Below are positions 8,151 through 18,394 of a stretch of 64,000 nucleotides of DNA, one piece after another. Source of the DNA: Kordiimonadales bacterium IMCC3096 (GTDB taxonomy: Bacteria > Pseudomonadota > Alphaproteobacteria > Minwuiales > Minwuiaceae); the NCBI GenBank assembly GCA_016865035.1, contig CP018227.1:4126115-4190114 (forward strand), in the 5' to 3' direction. Made by a program: the position numbers and the translations under genes. Each line of letters begins with the position of its first letter. Within the stretch, counting starts at the first letter, position 1. Under the pieces are notes generated by a model that saw only the letters and a list, made by a program, of their open reading frames with translations, made no database searches and was not told the DNA's origin.

Positions 8151-9527
8151 TCACACCGACGCGTTGTTGCGGACAAAGGTCAGGAACGGCAACCGACCGA
8201 CATGCCAGGCGCAGACGCCATAGCCGACCAGGAAGGTCACCAGCGAGGCCACGAAGTAGCCGTATCCGTAGTAGGGAAATCCGAGTTCCATCGTCACCCA
8301 GGTGAACAGGCCGTTGGTCAGCAGGTAGAGCACCTGCACCCCCAGCATGACCTTGCGCAGATCGAAGTAGGCCAGCACGATTCCGACGAACATCAGCAGT
8401 ACATGGAACAGGGCGCCCAGCACACCGAAGCGGAAGACGCCCAGTTGCAGCGCCGGAATGCCCACCGCCTCGAACAGTGGGCCGGCAACCAGGATGGCGG
8501 TCACACACAGGCAGAACTGCAGCACGATCACGTTTCGGGACGCGGCCAGCAGGGCGTCGATCAGGTTCTTGTGGTTTTCCTCGATCCGCTCGTAGTTCGC
8601 GTGATGCTCGATGTCGCGATAGAACCGCTGGTAATGCTCGAAGAAGCGCGTCTCGATATTGACGATGAACACCGCCATCGCCGGAACGATGGTCAGATAG
8701 GCCAGGAACATGGCGCCGTCATAGATCGGGTAGGAAACGAACCCGCTTTCCAGCACCTCGCGTTCCGGCGCGCACCACATCACCCACTTGTCGACCCAGA
8801 TCGCCAGATTGTAGATCAGCCCGGCCAGCGCCAGATCCCAGTACTTGCGGAAATAGGCAAGGAACGCGAACGGGCGCGTGATGCGATAGGGATATTCGGC
8901 AAACACCCGGGCAACCAGGGCGAAGAAGATCAGGCCCAAACCGAAGTTGAAACCGACGAGAATGCCGAAGGCACCGAAATCGGCGGCAAGGAACAGCCCC
9001 ATTCCACCGCCGGACATCATGCCGATGAAGAACGCCAGGGTGATGGAGCGATAGTCCTTCAGCGCTGTCAGGAAGACATTCACCATCCAGATGGCGGTGA
9101 CGAGGAAGTAGTTCATCAGCGCCCCGGCGATGATCAGCGGCGGCACATCGACCACGAAGAAATAGAACGGAACGACGATGAATGCCTGTGTGGTCAGCAG
9201 CATGAACAGCGCCGCGACCAGCATCCCCGGAGCCTCGACGACCGCCTTCTTGTAGATCATGTCGGCCAGGTATCGGGTCGCGACCAGCAGGATCGGCCCG
9301 GAGAAGGCCAGGCTGAAGGCAAAGTTGTAGATCAGCACGATGCGGAAGGAGATCAGCTCCTCCAGATCGGTGAAATAGATCCCGAAGAGATTGATCGACC
9401 CCACAGCCAGGATCGTGAACAGCCACGGCCCCGACGAGACGATCGTCGAATGCGCATAGCCCTGCACGATACCAAGCAGGTCATCGCGATCCGTCAGACG
9501 GCGCAGGGCAAATCCGATACCGGCCAT
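8151..9527 (-). CDS. pelG: Pel polysaccharide inner-membrane transporter PelG
   Basis: 458-residue polytopic membrane protein of the MATE/MOP-like PelG family, thought to move Pel polysaccharide across the inner membrane with PelD, PelE and PelF. The family N-terminus GIGFALRRLTDRDDL is present, followed by about twelve hydrophobic segments spread over the whole length. Its start shares one base with the end of pelF, which indicates translational coupling. It is the last recognisable pel gene of the operon. Confidence 0.94.
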   Translation of the reverse strand: MAGIGFALRRLTDRDDLLGIVQGYAHSTIVSSGPWLFTILAVGSINLFGIYFTDLEELISFRIVLIYNFAFSLAFSGPILLVATRYLADMIYKKAVVEAPGMLVAALFMLLTTQAFIVVPFYFFVVDVPPLIIAGALMNYFLVTAIWMVNVFLTALKDYRSITLAFFIGMMSGGGMGLFLAADFGAFGILVGFNFGLGLIFFALVARVFAEYPYRITRPFAFLAYFRKYWDLALAGLIYNLAIWVDKWVMWCAPEREVLESGFVSYPIYDGAMFLAYLTIVPAMAVFIVNIETRFFEHYQRFYRDIEHHANYERIEENHKNLIDALLAASRNVIVLQFCLCVTAILVAGPLFEAVGIPALQLGVFRFGVLGALFHVLLMFVGIVLAYFDLRKVMLGVQVLYLLTNGLFTWVTMELGFPYYGYGYFVASLVTFLVGYGVCAWHVGRLPFLTFVRNNASV

Positions 9528-11065
9528 CAGGCGGCCTCCTGCTCGGCGCGCTTCACGCGTTCGTCCGGGGACATGGTCTCATAGGCAATGAAGGTCTCGT
9601 AGAGCTCGTGGTAGATCCGGTCGATCTCCAGCTTGTTGTAGTACTTGCGGACACGTTCCTTGATCGCCTTCCGGGCGCTGGCCATGTAGGCCGGATCCTT
9701 GATCAGTGCCGCAAGCTCCTTCGCTGTCTCCGCCGGGTTGGATAGTGGCGTGATGGCCCCGCCCGTACCCAGCGGCGGATCCTCGTGCGGCATGCCGAAC
9801 AGCATGTCGCGACAGGCGCCGACGTCAGTTGAAACCGTCGGAATTCCTGCCGCACCACCCTCCAGAATGACAAGCGGCTGCGCCTCCGAGATGGAGGTCA
9901 GGACCATGACATCCACCTGGCCCAGGTACTCGGTCAACTGAACGCGACCGGTGAAGATGAAATTCTCCTTCAGGTCCAGATGATCGACCATCTGCTGACA
10001 CTCGCGGTAGTAATCCACGTCCTCGTCCGTGGGCCCCATCATCAGGGCCTTGATGTCGGGAACCTCCCGCCGCAGCAGGGCAACCGCGCGGATGTAGGTC
10101 TTCACGTCCTTGATGGGGACGACACGCCCGATCAGGGCGATCGTCGGCCGGTCGTTCGGTGTCCGCTCCACCTTGGAATACTTCTCGTAATCGACACCAT
10201 TCGGGATGATGCGCAACAGTTCCTCTGCCGCGCCGTCGCGCCGCTGCAGGTCCTGATTGCCCGTATAGAGCGTGATGATCTGATCGCAGGCCTGATAGCA
10301 GCAACGGCTGTAGGCCACGAAGGTATCGATCCAGAGGTCCTTCAGGTCACGTTTCGGCTTCTCCAGCCCGAGGCTGCCGCCCGGTGCCTCATAGAGCCAG
10401 TCGGCCATGGCGATCTCGATCCGGCGTTCATTGGTGTAGATGCCATGCTCGGTCAGCAGCACCGGCCGTCCGGTCTCCAGCTTCGCCCGCGCGGCGAACA
10501 GACCCGCATAACCGGTGGAAACGGTGTGGAACACCTTCGCCTCCGGCATCGGCGACAGCAGGATGTTGAACAGCCCCCCCAGCAGGGACCGCCAGGTCCA
10601 GAAGTAATCGAGGAACGAACTCTCCGGCATGTCCTGGCGGTACATGCGCAGCAGCATCTGCCAGGCTGGCTCGGAGTTCAGCAGGGTGTCACGCCCGAAC
10701 GCCTTTCGGTTCGGCGCAAGGGTCTTCAGCAGGTGGGCGACATCCTTCAGGTCACCTGCCGCCTGCATGGATTTCAGCGCCGGTTCCATGTCGCTCAGAT
10801 GCTGCTTCAACCGTCTGATCCTGCCACTGCCTGACGGCATCTTCTGCAGGAACACGTGATTGATGCCCCGGACATTGTCCGGCACCTCGTAGCGACGCTC
10901 CGGTGGCTTCTCGCCCGGCATCAGGCTGACGATATGGAAGGTCAGATCGCTCTGCGCACCCACCAGGTCATGCACCCAGCTCGACACGCCGCCCGCCACA
11001 TAGGGGTAGGTGCCTTCCAGAACCAGGCACACGTCCACAGGTTCGAAATGATCAACGCGCGCCAT
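9527..11065 (-). CDS. pelF: Pel polysaccharide glycosyltransferase PelF (GT4)
   Basis: Cytosolic GT4 glycosyltransferase that polymerises the Pel backbone from UDP-sugars; 512 residues, the usual length. The N-terminal VCLVLEGTYPYVAGGVSSWVHDL and the nucleotide-sugar motif SEAQPLVILEGGAAGIP are diagnostic. It overlaps pelE by 14 bp and touches pelG by one base. In characterised systems PelF acts with the PelD/E/G membrane complex, all encoded here. Confidence 0.95.
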   Translation of the reverse strand: MARVDHFEPVDVCLVLEGTYPYVAGGVSSWVHDLVGAQSDLTFHIVSLMPGEKPPERRYEVPDNVRGINHVFLQKMPSGSGRIRRLKQHLSDMEPALKSMQAAGDLKDVAHLLKTLAPNRKAFGRDTLLNSEPAWQMLLRMYRQDMPESSFLDYFWTWRSLLGGLFNILLSPMPEAKVFHTVSTGYAGLFAARAKLETGRPVLLTEHGIYTNERRIEIAMADWLYEAPGGSLGLEKPKRDLKDLWIDTFVAYSRCCYQACDQIITLYTGNQDLQRRDGAAEELLRIIPNGVDYEKYSKVERTPNDRPTIALIGRVVPIKDVKTYIRAVALLRREVPDIKALMMGPTDEDVDYYRECQQMVDHLDLKENFIFTGRVQLTEYLGQVDVMVLTSISEAQPLVILEGGAAGIPTVSTDVGACRDMLFGMPHEDPPLGTGGAITPLSNPAETAKELAALIKDPAYMASARKAIKERVRKYYNKLEIDRIYHELYETFIAYETMSPDERVKRAEQEAA

Positions 11066-12320
11066 CGGGTACCAGTGCCTCCCCTGTCATCATGGCTTCG
11101 CGCGCGGCATCAGTCGGCGTGTCCGTTGTCGAACTGATGGCATCTCCCTCCGGCGGGTGCATCTGCCGCTCGGCCTCTTCCAGTTCCCTTGTCGGGTCCA
11201 CGCCCTGCCAGGCCATGATAACGTCGCGCAGGCGATCATTGATCGTCGGATCGGCCAGCAGATCATCCCCAAATCCCGCAACGGCGTACCGCAGCCGGTC
11301 GAAATCACCCAGGCGGAAGACCGTTTCCATGTACCAGGCCAGTTCGCTGGGGCGCAGGATACCCTTGGCGAAACCAGCCTCGAACCAGCGTGCGGCTTCT
11401 TCCAGCCGGTCTGTCCGCACCATAAGCCGGCCAACCCCCAGCAGCGCATCCGCAAGTGTCGGCTCCAGATCCAGCGCCCTGCGATACCCCTCCTCGGCCT
11501 TGCGGCGGTTCTCCGCCTGCCGGTCACCATCAAGAATGCCGCTGAAGGCATACTTGTCGAAATGGCGGGCGACCTCCAGTTGGGCCGCATAGTCACCGGA
11601 AGCAGCCCTGGCCGCCTGCTCCAGCTCCATCGCCCGCTCCAGGAAGTCGTTCTCGATGCTTGCGGCGGCCGTTGCCGCCTGCACCCGCACCGCCGGATTG
11701 CTGTCGGAAAGGGCTGATTGCAGCGCCGGGGCGAATTCCGGCTTGAAGTCGCGGGTCAGCAGGGAGATCACCGCCCGCTTCTGCTCGATGGAGCCATATT
11801 GCAGGACATCTGTGAAGGAGGTGACATTCTGCTGCTTCGCCGAGTCGGCCAGTCCACGGGTCAGCATCTCGTAGAGCTTCTCGGAGGGCTCGTCGAAATG
11901 ATCGGGAAACAGGGACGCATACCACTCCTCGAACGGTGTCGCGTTCCTGCGGAAATGGACATGCAGCAGCATTGCCATCATGGTGCCAAGGGGCCCGAAG
12001 ATGCCGAGGAAGGTCGTCGCGACGAACACCAGCACCAGATAGCGGGAGTGGCCGCCGTTGGGTCGCACCTTCCATGCAGCAAACCCCAGCAGAACCGCTG
12101 CCAGGGCGTGCATCACCGCCGCAATCCAGGCCGGACCGAGGCGCGCATAGAGAAAGTACAGAATGCCTGCCTCGGCAATGGTCGCCAGAAGGGCAATTCC
12201 CAGAATGGAGAGGGTCGCATGATCACTGCCGCCGACCGATGCCTTGCGACGCTCACGCTCGACCTCGATCCGTTCCAGTTCCGCCTCAAGAGCCGCATCG
12301 GAAAGTGCCGCACCGCTCAT
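11052..12320 (-). CDS. pelE: PelE, inner-membrane TPR/repeat protein
   Basis: 422 residues. Several hydrophobic segments occupy roughly residues 35-125, followed by a soluble helical-repeat region with HEAT-like stretches (RVQAATAAASIEND) and TPR-like repeats (AEEGYRRALDLEPTLADALLGVGRLM). This matches PelE, which binds PelD in the inner membrane. Its start overlaps the pelD stop by 4 bp (ATGA), and its end overlaps pelF. It was identified from architecture plus position in the operon. Confidence 0.88.
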   Translation of the reverse strand: MSGAALSDAALEAELERIEVERERRKASVGGSDHATLSILGIALLATIAEAGILYFLYARLGPAWIAAVMHALAAVLLGFAAWKVRPNGGHSRYLVLVFVATTFLGIFGPLGTMMAMLLHVHFRRNATPFEEWYASLFPDHFDEPSEKLYEMLTRGLADSAKQQNVTSFTDVLQYGSIEQKRAVISLLTRDFKPEFAPALQSALSDSNPAVRVQAATAAASIENDFLERAMELEQAARAASGDYAAQLEVARHFDKYAFSGILDGDRQAENRRKAEEGYRRALDLEPTLADALLGVGRLMVRTDRLEEAARWFEAGFAKGILRPSELAWYMETVFRLGDFDRLRYAVAGFGDDLLADPTINDRLRDVIMAWQGVDPTRELEEAERQMHPPEGDAISSTTDTPTDAAREAMMTGEALVPDGAR

Positions 12321-13849
12321 CCCCGGCCTGCCCTGAGGATCGGCGTGTCCGGGGTGGTCCCGGCGTCACGCTCGGTGGGTGTGGTATAGATCGCCTTGGC
12401 GGTCGCGGTGATCTTCACCTCCTCCACCCTGGCCACTTCCAGATAGTGCATCACGGCACTGGCAATGCTCTCGGCCACCGTTGCGCCATCCGTTTCGGCG
12501 TTGACGGTAGGCAGGATGAGCGCGAACTCGCGCCCGTTCTGCTTGTACTCGAAAGCCTGCACCATGGGCGACATATGCTGCTCGACAACATCACGCAGGG
12601 CCTTGATCACCGCATGGCGGCGGTTCTCGTGCAACACGTCCAGCCCCTCTGCCTTCAGCTGCACCGCAGTCACGTCGATCCCCAGGTTCTCGCCCAGGAT
12701 CTTCATGAACCGCGAATGCTGGCGATAGACGGTGTCGCTCAACAGTGTCCGGTCATCATTGAAGTACATGTTGCCCTGCGCCTTCCGGAAGCGACGGGCG
12801 TTGGCGAAGGCCGTGCCGACCCATTCGCTGAGAATGCGGAAGTTCTCCAGTGAGGAAACATGCAGGTCCAGGAAGCCCAGCTTCTCGATCTTCAGCATGC
12901 CGACGACTTCGCCGGTATCGACGGACGTCAGAGGCCCGGCGAGAATGCCCTCCCCCGCCAGCAGCCGCTCATCGACCGTGTTGACGACGGACATGATGTG
13001 GCGGCGGCCCACCACTTCCTGAAAGATCGCGGTCGAGGAATCGAACACCCGCGCGTAGGTATCGTCGTCGTCCCACCCGTCATTGGTCACGGCCTCCAGT
13101 ACGCTGCCGTTCAGCAGATAGAGCGAGAACTTGGTCGGCTGCATGACCGCGCGGACCAGATCGGCAATACCGATCAGGACCTCACCGGGGCCGAGCTTCT
13201 CGATGGCCTTCGCCGCCTGGTAGAGCGTGAACACCGTCTTGAGCTGGCCCGCGACACGGACTTCCAGATGTTCCTTGGTATGAAGCAGCTGCTCATAGGC
13301 GGAGGTAAGCACCTGCTCGCGTTCCGATGTCTCGCTCAATTGCCGGGCGAGCTGCTGATTGCGCTGGCGCAGCCGCTCTCGCAGCAGGCCCACCATCAGG
13401 GCAACGATCAGCCAGAGCAGTGGCTCGGCGGCATACTGCCAGGCAATCAGGTAGTCCTCGTTGTTGAAGGAGGTGAAATCGCCGCCGATGGCATCGCTTA
13501 TGGCCACATCCAGACCATTGTCGATGGCATCTTCCAGAATGGGCCCGATCAGGCGGGACCCGACCGACAGGATGGAGGAAAGGAAGGCGGCAACCAGCCC
13601 CTCGAAGACGCCGTACTGGACCGAGATCAGGATGACCGGAATCCAGTAGGGATTCGGATTGACCGTCGCGAAGCCATTGATGCCGCCGATCAGATAGTCG
13701 ATGCCCACGAGCAGCATCATGATCAGCGCGATTTCCAGATAGGCGACACCCTGTGCCGACTTCAGGAACATGGATTCCTGCTTCACGATCGTGCGTGCGG
13801 CCTCTTCCTCACCAAAACCCAGCAGCTGTCTGGCCTGTTCGGACTGCAT
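12317..13849 (-). CDS. pelD: PelD, c-di-GMP receptor-type membrane protein
   Basis: 510 residues. Transmembrane segments are at about 35-57, 68-100 and 138-160, followed by a coiled linker, a GAF domain (about 205-350) and a degenerate GGDEF domain (about 365-490). In Pseudomonas, PelD binds c-di-GMP through an RxxD site just before the degenerate GGDEF motif and so turns on Pel synthesis. Here the GGDEF position reads NGREF (about 438-442), and the RxxD position reads MVQA. It lies 2 bp downstream of the PelB-like gene and is coupled to pelE. Confidence 0.92.
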   Translation of the reverse strand: MQSEQARQLLGFGEEEAARTIVKQESMFLKSAQGVAYLEIALIMMLLVGIDYLIGGINGFATVNPNPYWIPVILISVQYGVFEGLVAAFLSSILSVGSRLIGPILEDAIDNGLDVAISDAIGGDFTSFNNEDYLIAWQYAAEPLLWLIVALMVGLLRERLRQRNQQLARQLSETSEREQVLTSAYEQLLHTKEHLEVRVAGQLKTVFTLYQAAKAIEKLGPGEVLIGIADLVRAVMQPTKFSLYLLNGSVLEAVTNDGWDDDDTYARVFDSSTAIFQEVVGRRHIMSVVNTVDERLLAGEGILAGPLTSVDTGEVVGMLKIEKLGFLDLHVSSLENFRILSEWVGTAFANARRFRKAQGNMYFNDDRTLLSDTVYRQHSRFMKILGENLGIDVTAVQLKAEGLDVLHENRRHAVIKALRDVVEQHMSPMVQAFEYKQNGREFALILPTVNAETDGATVAESIASAVMHYLEVARVEEVKITATAKAIYTTPTERDAGTTPDTPILRAGRG

Positions 13850-13851
13850 GA

Positions 13852-16005
13852 TCAGAACCTGACCAGCAGATGGCCGCCGAAGCGCGTGAAGACCGCGTCA
13901 TCGCCACGGCCCGAAACCCGGGAATGCCCGGCGCGCAGGCCGAGTTGCGAATCCTCGGTGATTTCCCAGAACAGCTCGCCACCGATGCTGGGACCGATCC
14001 CGTCACCGATCCGGTCCGCCGACAGGCTGAGGAAGGTGTTGTAGCGGAAGTCGGAGCCGATCGCGTCACCCAGTGAAATGTCCAGCGAGTGGAACTCGGT
14101 ATCGGTCAGGGGCAATGGATTGAATGCGTTGCCATTGGCGTCGCGTCGCGTCTCGACAGCGCCGACATAGCGCCCGCTGATCGTGTACCCGACGGTCAGG
14201 TCCGCCGCGTCCCAGGGCACCCGATAACGCAGGGCGCCGCCAATATCGAAGGACGTTGCAGCAGTGTCGATGGTGTCGATACCGAAGCGGTTCAGGCTTG
14301 CCTCCGCCTCGGCGAACCAGCGGCGGCTGAGTTGATGCTCGTGCCGCAGACCGATGGCGTCCTGCAGCGCATCATCGACGATGCCCTCAACCAGTTCCCA
14401 GTAAGAGCGATGCAGGGTCAGGCGCAGCGTGGTCCTGGTCTGCGGCGTCCGATAGTCGTAGCGCAGCGCGGCCCCCGGAGAACCGGCACCCGCGAGCAGG
14501 GTCCCCTCCAGGTCATGCCCCGGTGCGAGTTCAACGGCGCCATAGACCTCACCGCGCTGATGCATCTCGCTGACAGCTTCCGTGACGCCGCTGGCACGCA
14601 GCACCTGATCGTCATCCAGCCAGCGATTCTCGACGCGGACGCCGAACTCCGTGGTCATTGACGTGATGACCCGACCACTGCCTACGGTGATCCACTGGGT
14701 ATCACCGCCCTCCACGAACTGGATATCGCTGTCGAGGCGAAGCTGTGAACCGTGCTCCCGGTCCAGTGAACGCCGGGCCGAAGCCAGTTCGCGCCGGTTC
14801 GGGTCCAGATTGAGCGCCCTGTCATAGAGGCTGACCGCGCGGCGCCATGAGCCTACGCTTTCCTCCAGGGTCGCAAGCTCGACCAGCACATCCGCATTGT
14901 CGGGTGCGGTCTGCTGCAGGTCCTGCAGATCGGAACGGGCAGCATCCGTCTTGCCCTGCCGCGCCTTCAGCCGTGCGCGCAGGACATCCAGCCGAAGGTC
15001 CTCTGCCGACCTGGCGTCGGCTGACGCTCCGCCCGCCTCCGTCAGCGTGATCCGTGTCACCGCGCCCTCGTGCCCGAGCCCGAAGTTCACCGGGCGCGTG
15101 GCAACGATGAGCATGCTGTCGTAGCCGACGGAGACACTGCTGAGCCAGCCGGGCAACTGCTCCGCGATCCCGTCCGCGACGCTGCTGTCAATCGGCTCAG
15201 CGAACCGGAGCAGCAATTCGCTCTCACTTGCCTCCGGTTCGATCGTCACCGTCTTGGGCCAGAAAAACTGGATGTCGACACCCGCCGGGCCGGACGAAAC
15301 CTCGACGCGCGGCTGCAGGACAAGTTCCGTCACGGTGGTGGTGCTCTGTTCGACGGTCGCGCTGGAAACCTCCGGCCGGACGTTCGGTCCCTTGAGCCTG
15401 AGCAGTTTCAGGGCGCGTTCCGCCGCCGCGTCTAGACGCCGCTGAACTGCCGGATCGCGGTTCGGAACCGGAGCCGGAGCCGGAACGGCCGGCACACGCG
15501 CTGTCGAAGATCCCCCCGGGGGCACCAGAACAACCGATCGGTCGCGTGTGGCGTCCTGCTTTGCCCTGCCCGGCGGCTGCAGGTTCAGTGCGGCTGTCGC
15601 TCCACCGGCCGCTGTCGTGCCGTCCAGCCGTGCGGGACGGGCCGTGATCTCCACCGCCAGGACGTTGCCGTCGATCTGAACGGCAAACTCGGCGTCCTGC
15701 CGTGTCGTGATGGCAATGGAGCGCGCGCGCTTGTCAACTCCGACAACCCAGTTGGCCAGCCGCTGTCGCAAGGCGCCGACGAACGGGCTGTTGAACTCCT
15801 GATCAAACCGCAGGACCAACTGCCGGTCGCTGCGGTCGATCTCGGCATGGAAAGGACCGGGCCAGGAAAACTCGAGCCGTGCCATGGGTCCCAGATCGGC
15901 CGAAAGCACGCGTACCAGCGGCGCATCGACGGCTGCGGACTGGCCGATGCCGCTGGTGACCGGCGACATGATCAGCGCAAGCACCAGCAGGGCGCGGGAC
16001 AGCAT
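13852..16005 (-). CDS. pelB: PelB-like outer-membrane porin with AMIN-like modules
   Basis: Probable outer-membrane export pore for Pel, 717 residues. Order: signal peptide (about 1-25, ending SGIGQSAA); beta module A (about 41-120); Pro/Ala linker; similar beta module B (about 242-322); about two TPRs (335-415); then a beta-rich region from about 420 ending GGHLLVRF, whose terminal Phe is typical of outer-membrane barrels. Pseudomonas PelB is near 1190 residues with a long TPR superhelix, so this form is short and remodelled. ATG 16005 has AAGGG 8 nt upstream; 16044 is an alternative. The symbol is assigned by architecture and operon position, not by full-length similarity. Confidence 0.75.
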   Translation of the reverse strand: MLSRALLVLALIMSPVTSGIGQSAAVDAPLVRVLSADLGPMARLEFSWPGPFHAEIDRSDRQLVLRFDQEFNSPFVGALRQRLANWVVGVDKRARSIAITTRQDAEFAVQIDGNVLAVEITARPARLDGTTAAGGATAALNLQPPGRAKQDATRDRSVVLVPPGGSSTARVPAVPAPAPVPNRDPAVQRRLDAAAERALKLLRLKGPNVRPEVSSATVEQSTTTVTELVLQPRVEVSSGPAGVDIQFFWPKTVTIEPEASESELLLRFAEPIDSSVADGIAEQLPGWLSSVSVGYDSMLIVATRPVNFGLGHEGAVTRITLTEAGGASADARSAEDLRLDVLRARLKARQGKTDAARSDLQDLQQTAPDNADVLVELATLEESVGSWRRAVSLYDRALNLDPNRRELASARRSLDREHGSQLRLDSDIQFVEGGDTQWITVGSGRVITSMTTEFGVRVENRWLDDDQVLRASGVTEAVSEMHQRGEVYGAVELAPGHDLEGTLLAGAGSPGAALRYDYRTPQTRTTLRLTLHRSYWELVEGIVDDALQDAIGLRHEHQLSRRWFAEAEASLNRFGIDTIDTAATSFDIGGALRYRVPWDAADLTVGYTISGRYVGAVETRRDANGNAFNPLPLTDTEFHSLDISLGDAIGSDFRYNTFLSLSADRIGDGIGPSIGGELFWEITEDSQLGLRAGHSRVSGRGDDAVFTRFGGHLLVRF

Positions 16006-16215: not shown

Positions 16216-17142
16216 TCAGACGCCTGATGCGCGACGGCTCGCGACGCTGTCGAGCCAGTTGCCATAGAATGCCCGACCATCCTGCTGCCAGTGCGCCACC
16301 GGTTGGGCGGTGTCATCATCGTCGGGATAGTAGTTCAGCGGCAGCTCTATCGCCGCACCGGATTTCTTGTCGCGATCGTACTCTCGCTTCAGGGTATCGG
16401 CGTCATATTCGAAGTGATTGAGCATGTAGACGCAGCCCTTCGCCGGGTCCTCGAGCAGACAGATCCCCGCCTCGGCGCTTTCCGCCAGAACCACCAGACC
16501 CGTGTCAGCCGGCAGATCCTCCCGACGGGTTTCGGAATGTCGGGACACTGGAACCGCGAAGGGCCTGCTGACGCCACGCAGCACCGATCCTTCATCCAGT
16601 ACTGCATGAGAAAAAACGCCGAACCTCTTGGCACTCAATACGTGTTTCGGCATTCCGTAATAGTGCTTCAACGCGGCCTGTGCGCCCCAGCAGATGCTGA
16701 ACACACCCAGGTGACGCTGTCCGATCCAGTCCAGGATCTGTTCCATCTCCGACCAGTAGGGCACCTCTTCAAAGGGCACCTGCTCGACAGGCGCACCTGT
16801 GATGATCAACCCGTCGAAGCGGAATTCCCGCACCTCCGCGAAGCTGCGATAGAACTTCCTCAGATGGTCCACCGGGGTATTCGCGGACCGGTAGTCTGGC
16901 TGACGCACGCGGTCCATGTAGGCGCTGGTGGCAAACAGCACGACCGCCACGTCGTGGGTCTCATGCGCCAGCATGCGGATGAGCTGCACCTCGGTCGCGA
17001 TCTTGTCCGGCATCAGGTTCAGGATGCCGATGCGAAGCGCGCTGTCAGGTGCCGCATCAGGCGTGGCGACCTCCGCCACCGACAGGCCCTCCTGGCGCAA
17101 TTGCGCCAGACAGGGCAATCCTTCGGGCAGGAACAGTGTCAT
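16216..17142 (-). CDS. metA: Homoserine O-acyltransferase MetA, predicted acetyl-CoA specific
   Basis: First committed step of methionine synthesis: acylation of homoserine. 308 residues, the usual length for the family. The catalytic cysteine is C151 in SICWGAQAAL. In the MetA fold, Glu or Gly after the GAP motif decides acetyl- versus succinyl-CoA; here GAPVE carries Glu (E120), as in Bacillus acetyltransferases, where E. coli has Gly. I therefore predict homoserine O-acetyltransferase. It follows a P-loop ATPase gene by only 21 bp, so no SAM riboswitch can lie directly in front of it. Confidence 0.93.
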   Translation of the reverse strand: MTLFLPEGLPCLAQLRQEGLSVAEVATPDAAPDSALRIGILNLMPDKIATEVQLIRMLAHETHDVAVVLFATSAYMDRVRQPDYRSANTPVDHLRKFYRSFAEVREFRFDGLIITGAPVEQVPFEEVPYWSEMEQILDWIGQRHLGVFSICWGAQAALKHYYGMPKHVLSAKRFGVFSHAVLDEGSVLRGVSRPFAVPVSRHSETRREDLPADTGLVVLAESAEAGICLLEDPAKGCVYMLNHFEYDADTLKREYDRDKKSGAAIELPLNYYPDDDDTAQPVAHWQQDGRAFYGNWLDSVASRRASGV

Positions 17143-17163: not shown

Positions 17164-18072
17164 TCAGGCCGCGGCCCGGACGCGACGGTCAATCGCGTCC
17201 GCGACCAGATTGATCACGTCATCATGATCACGGACCCCGGCAACATCCGCAGCCTCGACCACATAGCCATATCTGTCCGCGATGGCCTGGTAGCGGGGGA
17301 TGCGATGCTGCCACAGCTTCGGAAACACCCACTTCACGAAATCATCCGGATCGATGTCCGCCACCTGCTCGACGGGTGCGGCAGGCAGGCCGCGCTCCTC
17401 CCGATACTCGGGGATCACGGAGCGCAGGAAGTCGTCGCGATAGAACAGTGGTTTCGGATTGCGCATCGCCGCCGCCTGGATCCGGTTGTAGTCCGCCTCC
17501 CCCGCGCGGATGTAGAGCAGCAACGTATGCTCGGCCAGCGCATGCAGTACCGGATCCTCCTGGCTGCCCGAAGGATCCACGATCTCGCAGATGCTGCCGG
17601 ACGCATCATTGATGAAATTCGGGTAGCCGTAGATATCCAGCGCCTTGCGCATGAAACGGGCGACATCATGCATGGAGCTGATCTCGCCCTGTTCATGCAG
17701 GTCCTGGCGCTCACGGAAGTCGGCATAGCTCAGGCCGCCTTCCTCCATCCCATCCGGTGCCGGTCGCCCGATCTTGCCCAGAAAGGTCGAGATCGGGTCC
17801 AGGTTCTGGACGGTGATGTTGGAGCAGATGTAGATCGAGTCCGACAGCAGCAGGTTCCGCAGGAACGGGACCTGCATCGCCTGACGCTTGATGTTGTCGA
17901 GAATGTCCTCTTCCAGATACTTCGTCCCGATCCGGTAATCCGCCGAATAGTGGAACCAGAGATCGGTCGGCAGGCGTTCCGCCAGCATCGTCTTGCCGAC
18001 ACCCGACATGCCGAGCAGCGTGATCGACTTGTGCGCCGCGCGGCGGAACGCATCGCCGGATTCGTAGAACAT
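17164..18072 (-). CDS. P-loop ATPase/kinase-like protein upstream of metA
   Basis: 302 residues. A Walker A motif GMSGVGKT is at residues 21-28, right after a short N-terminal strand, as in small nucleotide or metabolite kinases. The rest (FHYSADYRIGTKYLEEDI, NDASGSICEI, HALAEHTLLLYIRA) does not let me name a family, and I cannot assign a reaction. ATG 18072 is chosen because GGAG lies 7 nt upstream; the longer reading starts in sequence with no such site. Tight spacing to metA (21 bp) and to the DUF1330 gene (34 bp) suggests one transcript and a possible link to methionine metabolism. Confidence 0.8.
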   Translation of the reverse strand: MFYESGDAFRRAAHKSITLLGMSGVGKTMLAERLPTDLWFHYSADYRIGTKYLEEDILDNIKRQAMQVPFLRNLLLSDSIYICSNITVQNLDPISTFLGKIGRPAPDGMEEGGLSYADFRERQDLHEQGEISSMHDVARFMRKALDIYGYPNFINDASGSICEIVDPSGSQEDPVLHALAEHTLLLYIRAGEADYNRIQAAAMRNPKPLFYRDDFLRSVIPEYREERGLPAAPVEQVADIDPDDFVKWVFPKLWQHRIPRYQAIADRYGYVVEAADVAGVRDHDDVINLVADAIDRRVRAAA

Positions 18073-18106
18073 CAGACAACTCCAGAAGTCAGAAAGACCG
18101 AAAGGC

Positions 18107-18394
18107 TCAGAGCCCCTCCACCGCGATGAAGGAGCCATCGGCAGCGCCCTCACGCTCCTTCTTCGCCGCCTGATATTCCGGCGAGTTGTACCAGGTCTTC
18201 GCGGCCTCCAGCGAGGCGAAGCGCAGGACCACCACACGGTGGGTTTCGGCCGGTCCCTCCAGCGTCACGGTCTCCCCGCCCCTGGCGACATACTCTCCCT
18301 GGTACTTGGCGATCGTCGCGGGCGCGAGCGCCTTGTAATTCTCGTACTTGGCCGGATCGGTGACATTAACTCTGGCAATGACGAACGCGCTCAT
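18107..18394 (-). CDS. DUF1330 domain protein
   Basis: 95 residues matching the DUF1330 dimeric alpha/beta-barrel family: AFVIARVNVTDPAKYENY at the start and VVLRFASLEAAKTWYNSPEYQ in the second half. Function is unknown for the family. It is the first gene of the minus-strand group with the P-loop ATPase and metA, and it is divergent from a crotonase gene 71 bp away. Confidence 0.88.
   Translation of the reverse strand: MSAFVIARVNVTDPAKYENYKALAPATIAKYQGEYVARGGETVTLEGPAETHRVVVLRFASLEAAKTWYNSPEYQAAKKEREGAADGSFIAVEGL

Follow-up and report, generated by a model that had tools for sequence, protein, structure and literature searches.

A pel operon split between two chromosomal sites, without a recognisable PelC, in a Minwuia relative

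The 64,000-nt window analysed here (contig CP018227.1, positions 4,126,115 to 4,190,114) belongs to Kordiimonadales bacterium IMCC3096, a Minwuia relative whose genome consists of one contig of 4.29 Mb (100% complete, 0.03% contamination). Its minus strand carries five coupled genes for Pel polysaccharide synthesis and export, a set that the original prediction described as a reduced pel operon lacking pelA and pelC. The arrangement is better described as split, and PelC-less, since the absence of pelA holds for the locus only while that of pelC extends to the whole genome. The window operon is half of a split pel operon, judging from the contiguous gene order found in two congeners and by the single clade formed by Minwuia PelA proteins. 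Most probably, the two halves constitute a working Pel-type exporter with PelB split in two, a PelA restricted to its deacetylase portion and no PelC, the genes having been separated by a chromosomal rearrangement.

The original prediction had allowed for pelA and pelC lying in a second cluster elsewhere in the genome. A genome-wide search located pelA in such a cluster and did not find pelC. Using as query the PelA protein of L030, a contiguous pel locus from Aerophototrophica, a match was obtained at positions 1209083-1211206 (44% identity, E 5e-177), within a gene encoding a PelA with deacetylase motifs (G000:C1:1209065-1211341). Coordinates place this gene 2.9 Mb from the window operon, or 1.35 Mb if the contig is circular. 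Separated from it by 7 bp, on the same strand, is a gene for a 1614-aa tetratricopeptide repeat (TPR) protein that matches the periplasmic half of PelB.

The relationship between the two clusters is apparent from other Minwuia genomes. In G003 and G006, the genes follow each other on one strand in the order pelA, pelB(TPR), P-loop gene, metA, pelB(barrel), pelD, pelE, pelF and pelG. In G000, G001, G002 and G004, both flanks show the pelA-TPR pair to be located elsewhere, and in G005 PelG and PelA are encoded on different short contigs. The PelA proteins of the seven Minwuia genomes form one clade in the tree (support 100/100), with those of G003 and G006 sister to the other five. In each of the six Minwuia genomes with an examined flank, a divergent MFS-type transporter gene is found upstream of pelA; since it is kept in linked and unlinked genomes, the pelA-TPR pair appears to have moved with that side. 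The simplest history would start from an ancestral Minwuia with a contiguous pel cluster already enclosing metA and the P-loop gene; in one subclade, this cluster would later have been broken between its TPR and P-loop genes. The length of the TPR protein differs across the split: it measures 1613-1614 aa where the genes are unlinked (G000, G001, G002 and G004; e.g., L084:8214-13058) and 1318 aa in the linked loci. Among 15 other alphaproteobacteria with a full-length PelG and a PelA match, PelA is on the PelG contig, within about 15 kb, in 11 and on another contig in four (G052, G088, G223 and G356).

The window gene completing this PelB (13852..16005, minus strand) lies in an open reading frame (ORF) extending to 16095; initiation at the ATG at 16005 yields a 717-aa protein. 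In the AlphaFold model (mean pLDDT, the predicted local distance difference test score, 79), two N-terminal beta domains and a short TPR stretch precede an outer-membrane barrel whose 16 strands fall within residues 421-716. In the PDB, the model is closest to chain M of 9h80, a PelBC structure (E 4e-17, template modelling (TM) score 0.76 by target length). Judged by this model, the window protein is the barrel half of PelB, recognised by fold alone. Altogether, the two parts that define PelB, a barrel and a long TPR scaffold, are supplied by two genes, one in the window and one in the second cluster. Model strands and BLAST delimit the beta domains to residues 30-122 (15640..15918, minus strand) and 233-323 (15037..15309, minus strand); a two-sequence BLAST search of one stretch against the other found them to be alike (26% identity over 110 aa, E 2e-9). 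The domain is doubled in Minwuia; by eye, two copies can be seen in L039 and one each in L030, L048 and L059. The idea that these domains are a simple substitute for PelC finds no support, as L048 and L059, which do carry PelC, also have one by this inspection. In two loci from Acidobacteriota (L041:3050-7447 and L052:3268-7509), the PelB-matching ORF is 1413-1465 aa long, as if TPR and barrel portions were fused; pelD follows immediately, and no PelC is seen within the stretch examined.

The distant PelA aligns with PelA of known structure (PDB 9cgy, E 8e-61), with the HIDGDG, HHTYSH, NEN and YYH motifs in register. PMC12022489 assigns to residues of these motifs the roles of base, metal triad, acid and helpers; their numbers were mapped by hand from the alignment. 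By these residues, the second cluster encodes the metal triad and the base of a PelA deacetylase. The alignment begins at chain residue 245 of 9cgy, and the hydrolase domain is absent from the protein. A similar protein opens the operon of L030: 740 aa long, it matches the solved PelA from chain residue 257, lacks the hydrolase domain and is followed by a TPR protein and then by a separate barrel protein. No match to the PgaB-type family PF14883, a conceivable PelA stand-in, was found in the genome. The sole PF03537 (GH114-like) protein, found in all seven Minwuia genomes, is encoded 19 kb away from pelG in an unrelated gene neighbourhood, next to LpxK-like and TatC-like genes (named from reading the ORFs rather than from a family search). 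It was rejected as the missing hydrolase: its identity to 12 pel-type hydrolases is 22-29%, whereas the identity of these 12 to the hydrolase of L045, which is pel-linked, is 42-57%. As the protein falls in a different group from the pel-type enzymes, the hydrolase part of PelA seems to be gone. This GH114-like secreted protein of the seven Minwuia (L161:7424-8356) is closest to proteins of G072 and G035, two genomes with no more than partial PelG matches.

The search for PelC used a profile derived from 13 such proteins of related loci. Four solved PelC chains reach 71-84 bits with this profile, against 33 for GNA1162, which is not a PelC. Over 26 genomes, values of 245-267 bits were recorded in eight (97 where the protein is cut by a contig end); six of these eight supplied members of the profile and are not independent controls. 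An independent control is provided by PelG-carrying genomes outside the class, 24 of 25 of which score at least 70 bits. By the same profile, PelC was not found in the complete genome of the window organism, nor was any recognisable PelC present in the seven Minwuia genomes, with scores of at most 18.8 bits. The best match in the window organism, at that score, was discarded: it lies inside a 605-aa ORF that, on inspection by eye, resembles a class III adenylate cyclase. Nine further genomes with a PelG match (partial in G035 and G072) reach at most 31.5 bits. Among the 15 non-Minwuia alphaproteobacteria mentioned above, PelC was found in seven and remained undetected in eight (G022, G052, G088, G133, G135, G202, G309 and G694); not counted are G697, which has PelG, and G121, which has PelC, since neither gave a PelA match. 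G648 resembles G697 in carrying PelG and giving no PelA match.

Loci sharing PelF with the window were also gathered with their flanks, a set that overlaps the genome set. PelC is seen in 12 of the 33 loci that include pelB and a flank and is unseen in 21, five of them from Minwuia; where the search covered the locus but not its genome, absence refers to the stretch examined. Eight of 41 rows had been dropped before the PelF tree was made, seven because no pelB was recognised in the stretch examined (L029, L031, L032, L034, L035, L044 and L063) and L075 as a duplicate of L028. On this tree, the distribution of PelC requires six changes, of which well-supported branches alone force just one. 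Since PelC is undetected in other alphaproteobacteria too, its loss is not special to the window.

Within the window, the five minus-strand ORFs, read as PelG, PelF, PelE, PelD and PelB-like, were confirmed at their places; as originally described, successive ORFs overlap by 1, 14 and 4 bp in turn, and 2 bp separate the last pair. Also borne out were the flanking genes, metA (PF04204) and one for a GFA-family protein (PF04828), and the absence of both pelA and pelC from the ORFs of the locus. Curated models assign with certainty the sequences of PelG, the inner-membrane transporter (8151..9527; PF16933, 418 bits against a cut-off of 29), and PelF, a family 4 (GT4) glycosyltransferase (9527..11065; NF038011, 454 bits against a cut-off of 100). 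The ORF at 11052..12320 is taken as PelE, a TPR/HEAT-type inner-membrane partner, from its position in the operon and its likeness to ORFs occupying the equivalent place in other pel loci; its TPR/HEAT matches fall under the curated cut-offs. PelD (12317..13849) comprises membrane helices, a GAF domain and a degenerate GGDEF domain. Upstream of the operon and on the same strand, metA (homoserine O-succinyltransferase, 16216..17142) and a P-loop ATPase-like gene (17164..18237) are the genes that in G003 and G006 lie inside the pel cluster, between the pelB halves. The P-loop gene has weak Pfam matches and is 79% identical to L067:5476-6381 and to L068:13732-14637. Scanning the metA-pelB gap returned no promoter-like sequence and one terminator-like sequence against 0.8 expected. 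The order of the five genes is identical in the five other Minwuia loci that span the whole operon (L026, L027, L028, L067 and L068), and all seven pel genes show ratios of nonsynonymous to synonymous change (dN/dS) of 0.05-0.18 when compared with L027 and L028. These two observations indicate that the operon is the product of neither chance nor decay.

Identification of PelD relies on a GAF_3 match, on a family profile that matches GGDEF domains and on fold: the PelD crystal structures 4etx, 4dmz and 4etz come second, fourth and fifth (E 4e-7 to 8e-7), with TM scores to target of 0.40 and root-mean-square deviations of 12-13, first place being taken by the diguanylate cyclase 4zmu. In Pseudomonas aeruginosa PelD, R367, D370 and R402 are required for binding of cyclic di-GMP (c-di-GMP) and for pellicle formation (PMC2170427). 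At the place of the RxxD motif (residues 427-430; 12560..12571, minus strand), the window protein reads SPMV; hence the site is lost. Among 32 PelD rows ungapped at this place (four more are gapped), RxxD is present in 23: none of the seven from the Minwuia group, which are six Minwuia and L029, from a metagenome-assembled genome 82-90% like the window, and 23 of the other 25. PelD of an uncultured alphaproteobacterium (L037:1119-2543) also lacks RxxD (LGASA), and in that locus pelD and pelE precede the rest. The genome of the window organism holds 10 GGDEF domains, so that c-di-GMP itself is probably made; control of PelD by this nucleotide, to judge from the missing site, has probably been lost or altered.

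Several points weigh against the reading of a working, PelC-less exporter. The profile may miss a strongly diverged PelC, or the role of PelC may have passed to an unrelated lipoprotein, with export proceeding as in P. aeruginosa. We consider this unlikely, while noting that PelC is short, that outer-membrane pel loci are more divergent than the rest according to PMC7112194, and that weak matches exist in G052 (31.5 bits, from a long frame that lies on a different contig) and in G008, where 39.7 bits in a genome devoid of PelG represent background. However, the profile recognises the solved PelC chains and nearly all PelG-carrying genomes of other classes; moreover, the pelB and pelD ORFs of L030, L040, L042 and L065 overlap or are 15-18 bp apart, leaving no room for a gene. 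Our inference that the two clusters of the window organism act together draws on orthology and on the fact that G003 and G006 have them side by side. Given the 2.9 Mb between them, the window operon could make its own polymer, with the distant pelA-TPR pair working in a different pathway. We find this quite improbable: the genes are contiguous in G003 and G006, their PelA belongs to a single clade, and, of nine genomes of the family searched, seven have both PelG and PelA (all seven Minwuia, each matched by the L030 query) and two, from other genera, have neither. To our knowledge, no polymer has been reported from this organism. Moreover, neither the PelD protein nor its family profile reached solved PelD by sequence, its placement resting on fold and operon position, and dN/dS values relative to the distant G006 are merely moderate (0.18-0.35, with a proportion of synonymous differences (pS) of 0.5-0.6). 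Finally, the earlier suggestion that PelA is missing or non-orthologously replaced, leaving the polymer possibly unmodified, drew on the lack of pelA in the window locus and has next to nothing left in its favour, as the genome has, next to the gene for the TPR part of PelB, a PelA whose catalytic motifs are conserved, which is under purifying selection and falls in one clade with the PelA of the linked loci in G003 and G006.

If the split exporter works as we propose, polymerisation would be the task of PelF, and PelG, together with PelD and PelE, would carry the polymer over the inner membrane, as expected from knowledge of these families. The distant PelA, whose active-site motifs are in place, would trim acetyl groups in the periplasm; the polymer of Gram-negative Pel systems is a partly deacetylated alpha-1,4 GalNAc chain. 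Export over the outer membrane would fall to the PelB barrel protein, with no PelC ring involved, its N-terminal beta domains possibly docking the barrel to the TPR protein or to the cell wall. With its RxxD site gone, PelD would probably escape or have altered c-di-GMP control. More tentatively, and with slightly less than even confidence, the system might exemplify a Gram-negative Pel class, common in Alphaproteobacteria, in which export occurs without PelC through a two-protein PelB with extra N-terminal beta domains in its barrel half, the Minwuia PelD being in addition freed from c-di-GMP control.

PMC12141448 calls PelC an essential component and a hallmark of the Gram-negative Pel systems, and in a 2025 study of PelA every homologue with a searchable genome lay in a pel operon (PMC12022489). 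The window genome departs from both statements. A working system would mean that Pel export through a split PelB can dispense with PelC, and that surveys keyed on PelC or on operon completeness miss such cases. The genome further offers a natural PelD without RxxD in a species still having GGDEF domains. In the literature searched, we found no description of a PelC-less Gram-negative pel system, nor of a variant combining distant PelB halves, a deacetylase-only PelA, no PelC and a PelD without RxxD. A search for Minwuia or exopolysaccharide returned no paper naming Minwuia among the matches listed.

In conclusion, the kind of system is known, and its split, PelC-less form is a variant. It shares with pelABCDEFG of P. 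aeruginosa the homologues of PelF, PelG, PelD and, putatively, PelE, the PelA deacetylase core, the PelB barrel fold (9h80) and the TPR scaffold; it differs in occupying two places, in a PelB made of two proteins, in a PelA that lacks the hydrolase domain and a PelD that lacks RxxD, and in that no PelC was found. A deacetylase-only PelA is known from Bacillus cereus, the PelADA protein (PMC13254593), and the pelDEADAFG system of this species resembles the present one in having a separate deacetylase and PelC outside the set (PMC7112168, PMC13254593); that system, however, is Gram-positive, whereas the window system has a PelB barrel and scaffold. Streptococcal PelD, which lacks the GGDEF domain, has likewise lost c-di-GMP recognition (PMC7112168), whereas the Minwuia PelD keeps the domain and has lost RxxD in a genome with 10 GGDEF domains. 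Fission of pelB in aquatic thermophiles, and pelA rearrangement with gain and loss of the locus in Nitrosospira, are reported in PMC7112194, so that a split pelB and a moved pelA have precedents as evolutionary events. Those cases are rearrangements of the locus, with no PelC loss described in the accessible text, whereas here pelA and pelB(TPR) lie megabases away from the remainder of the operon.

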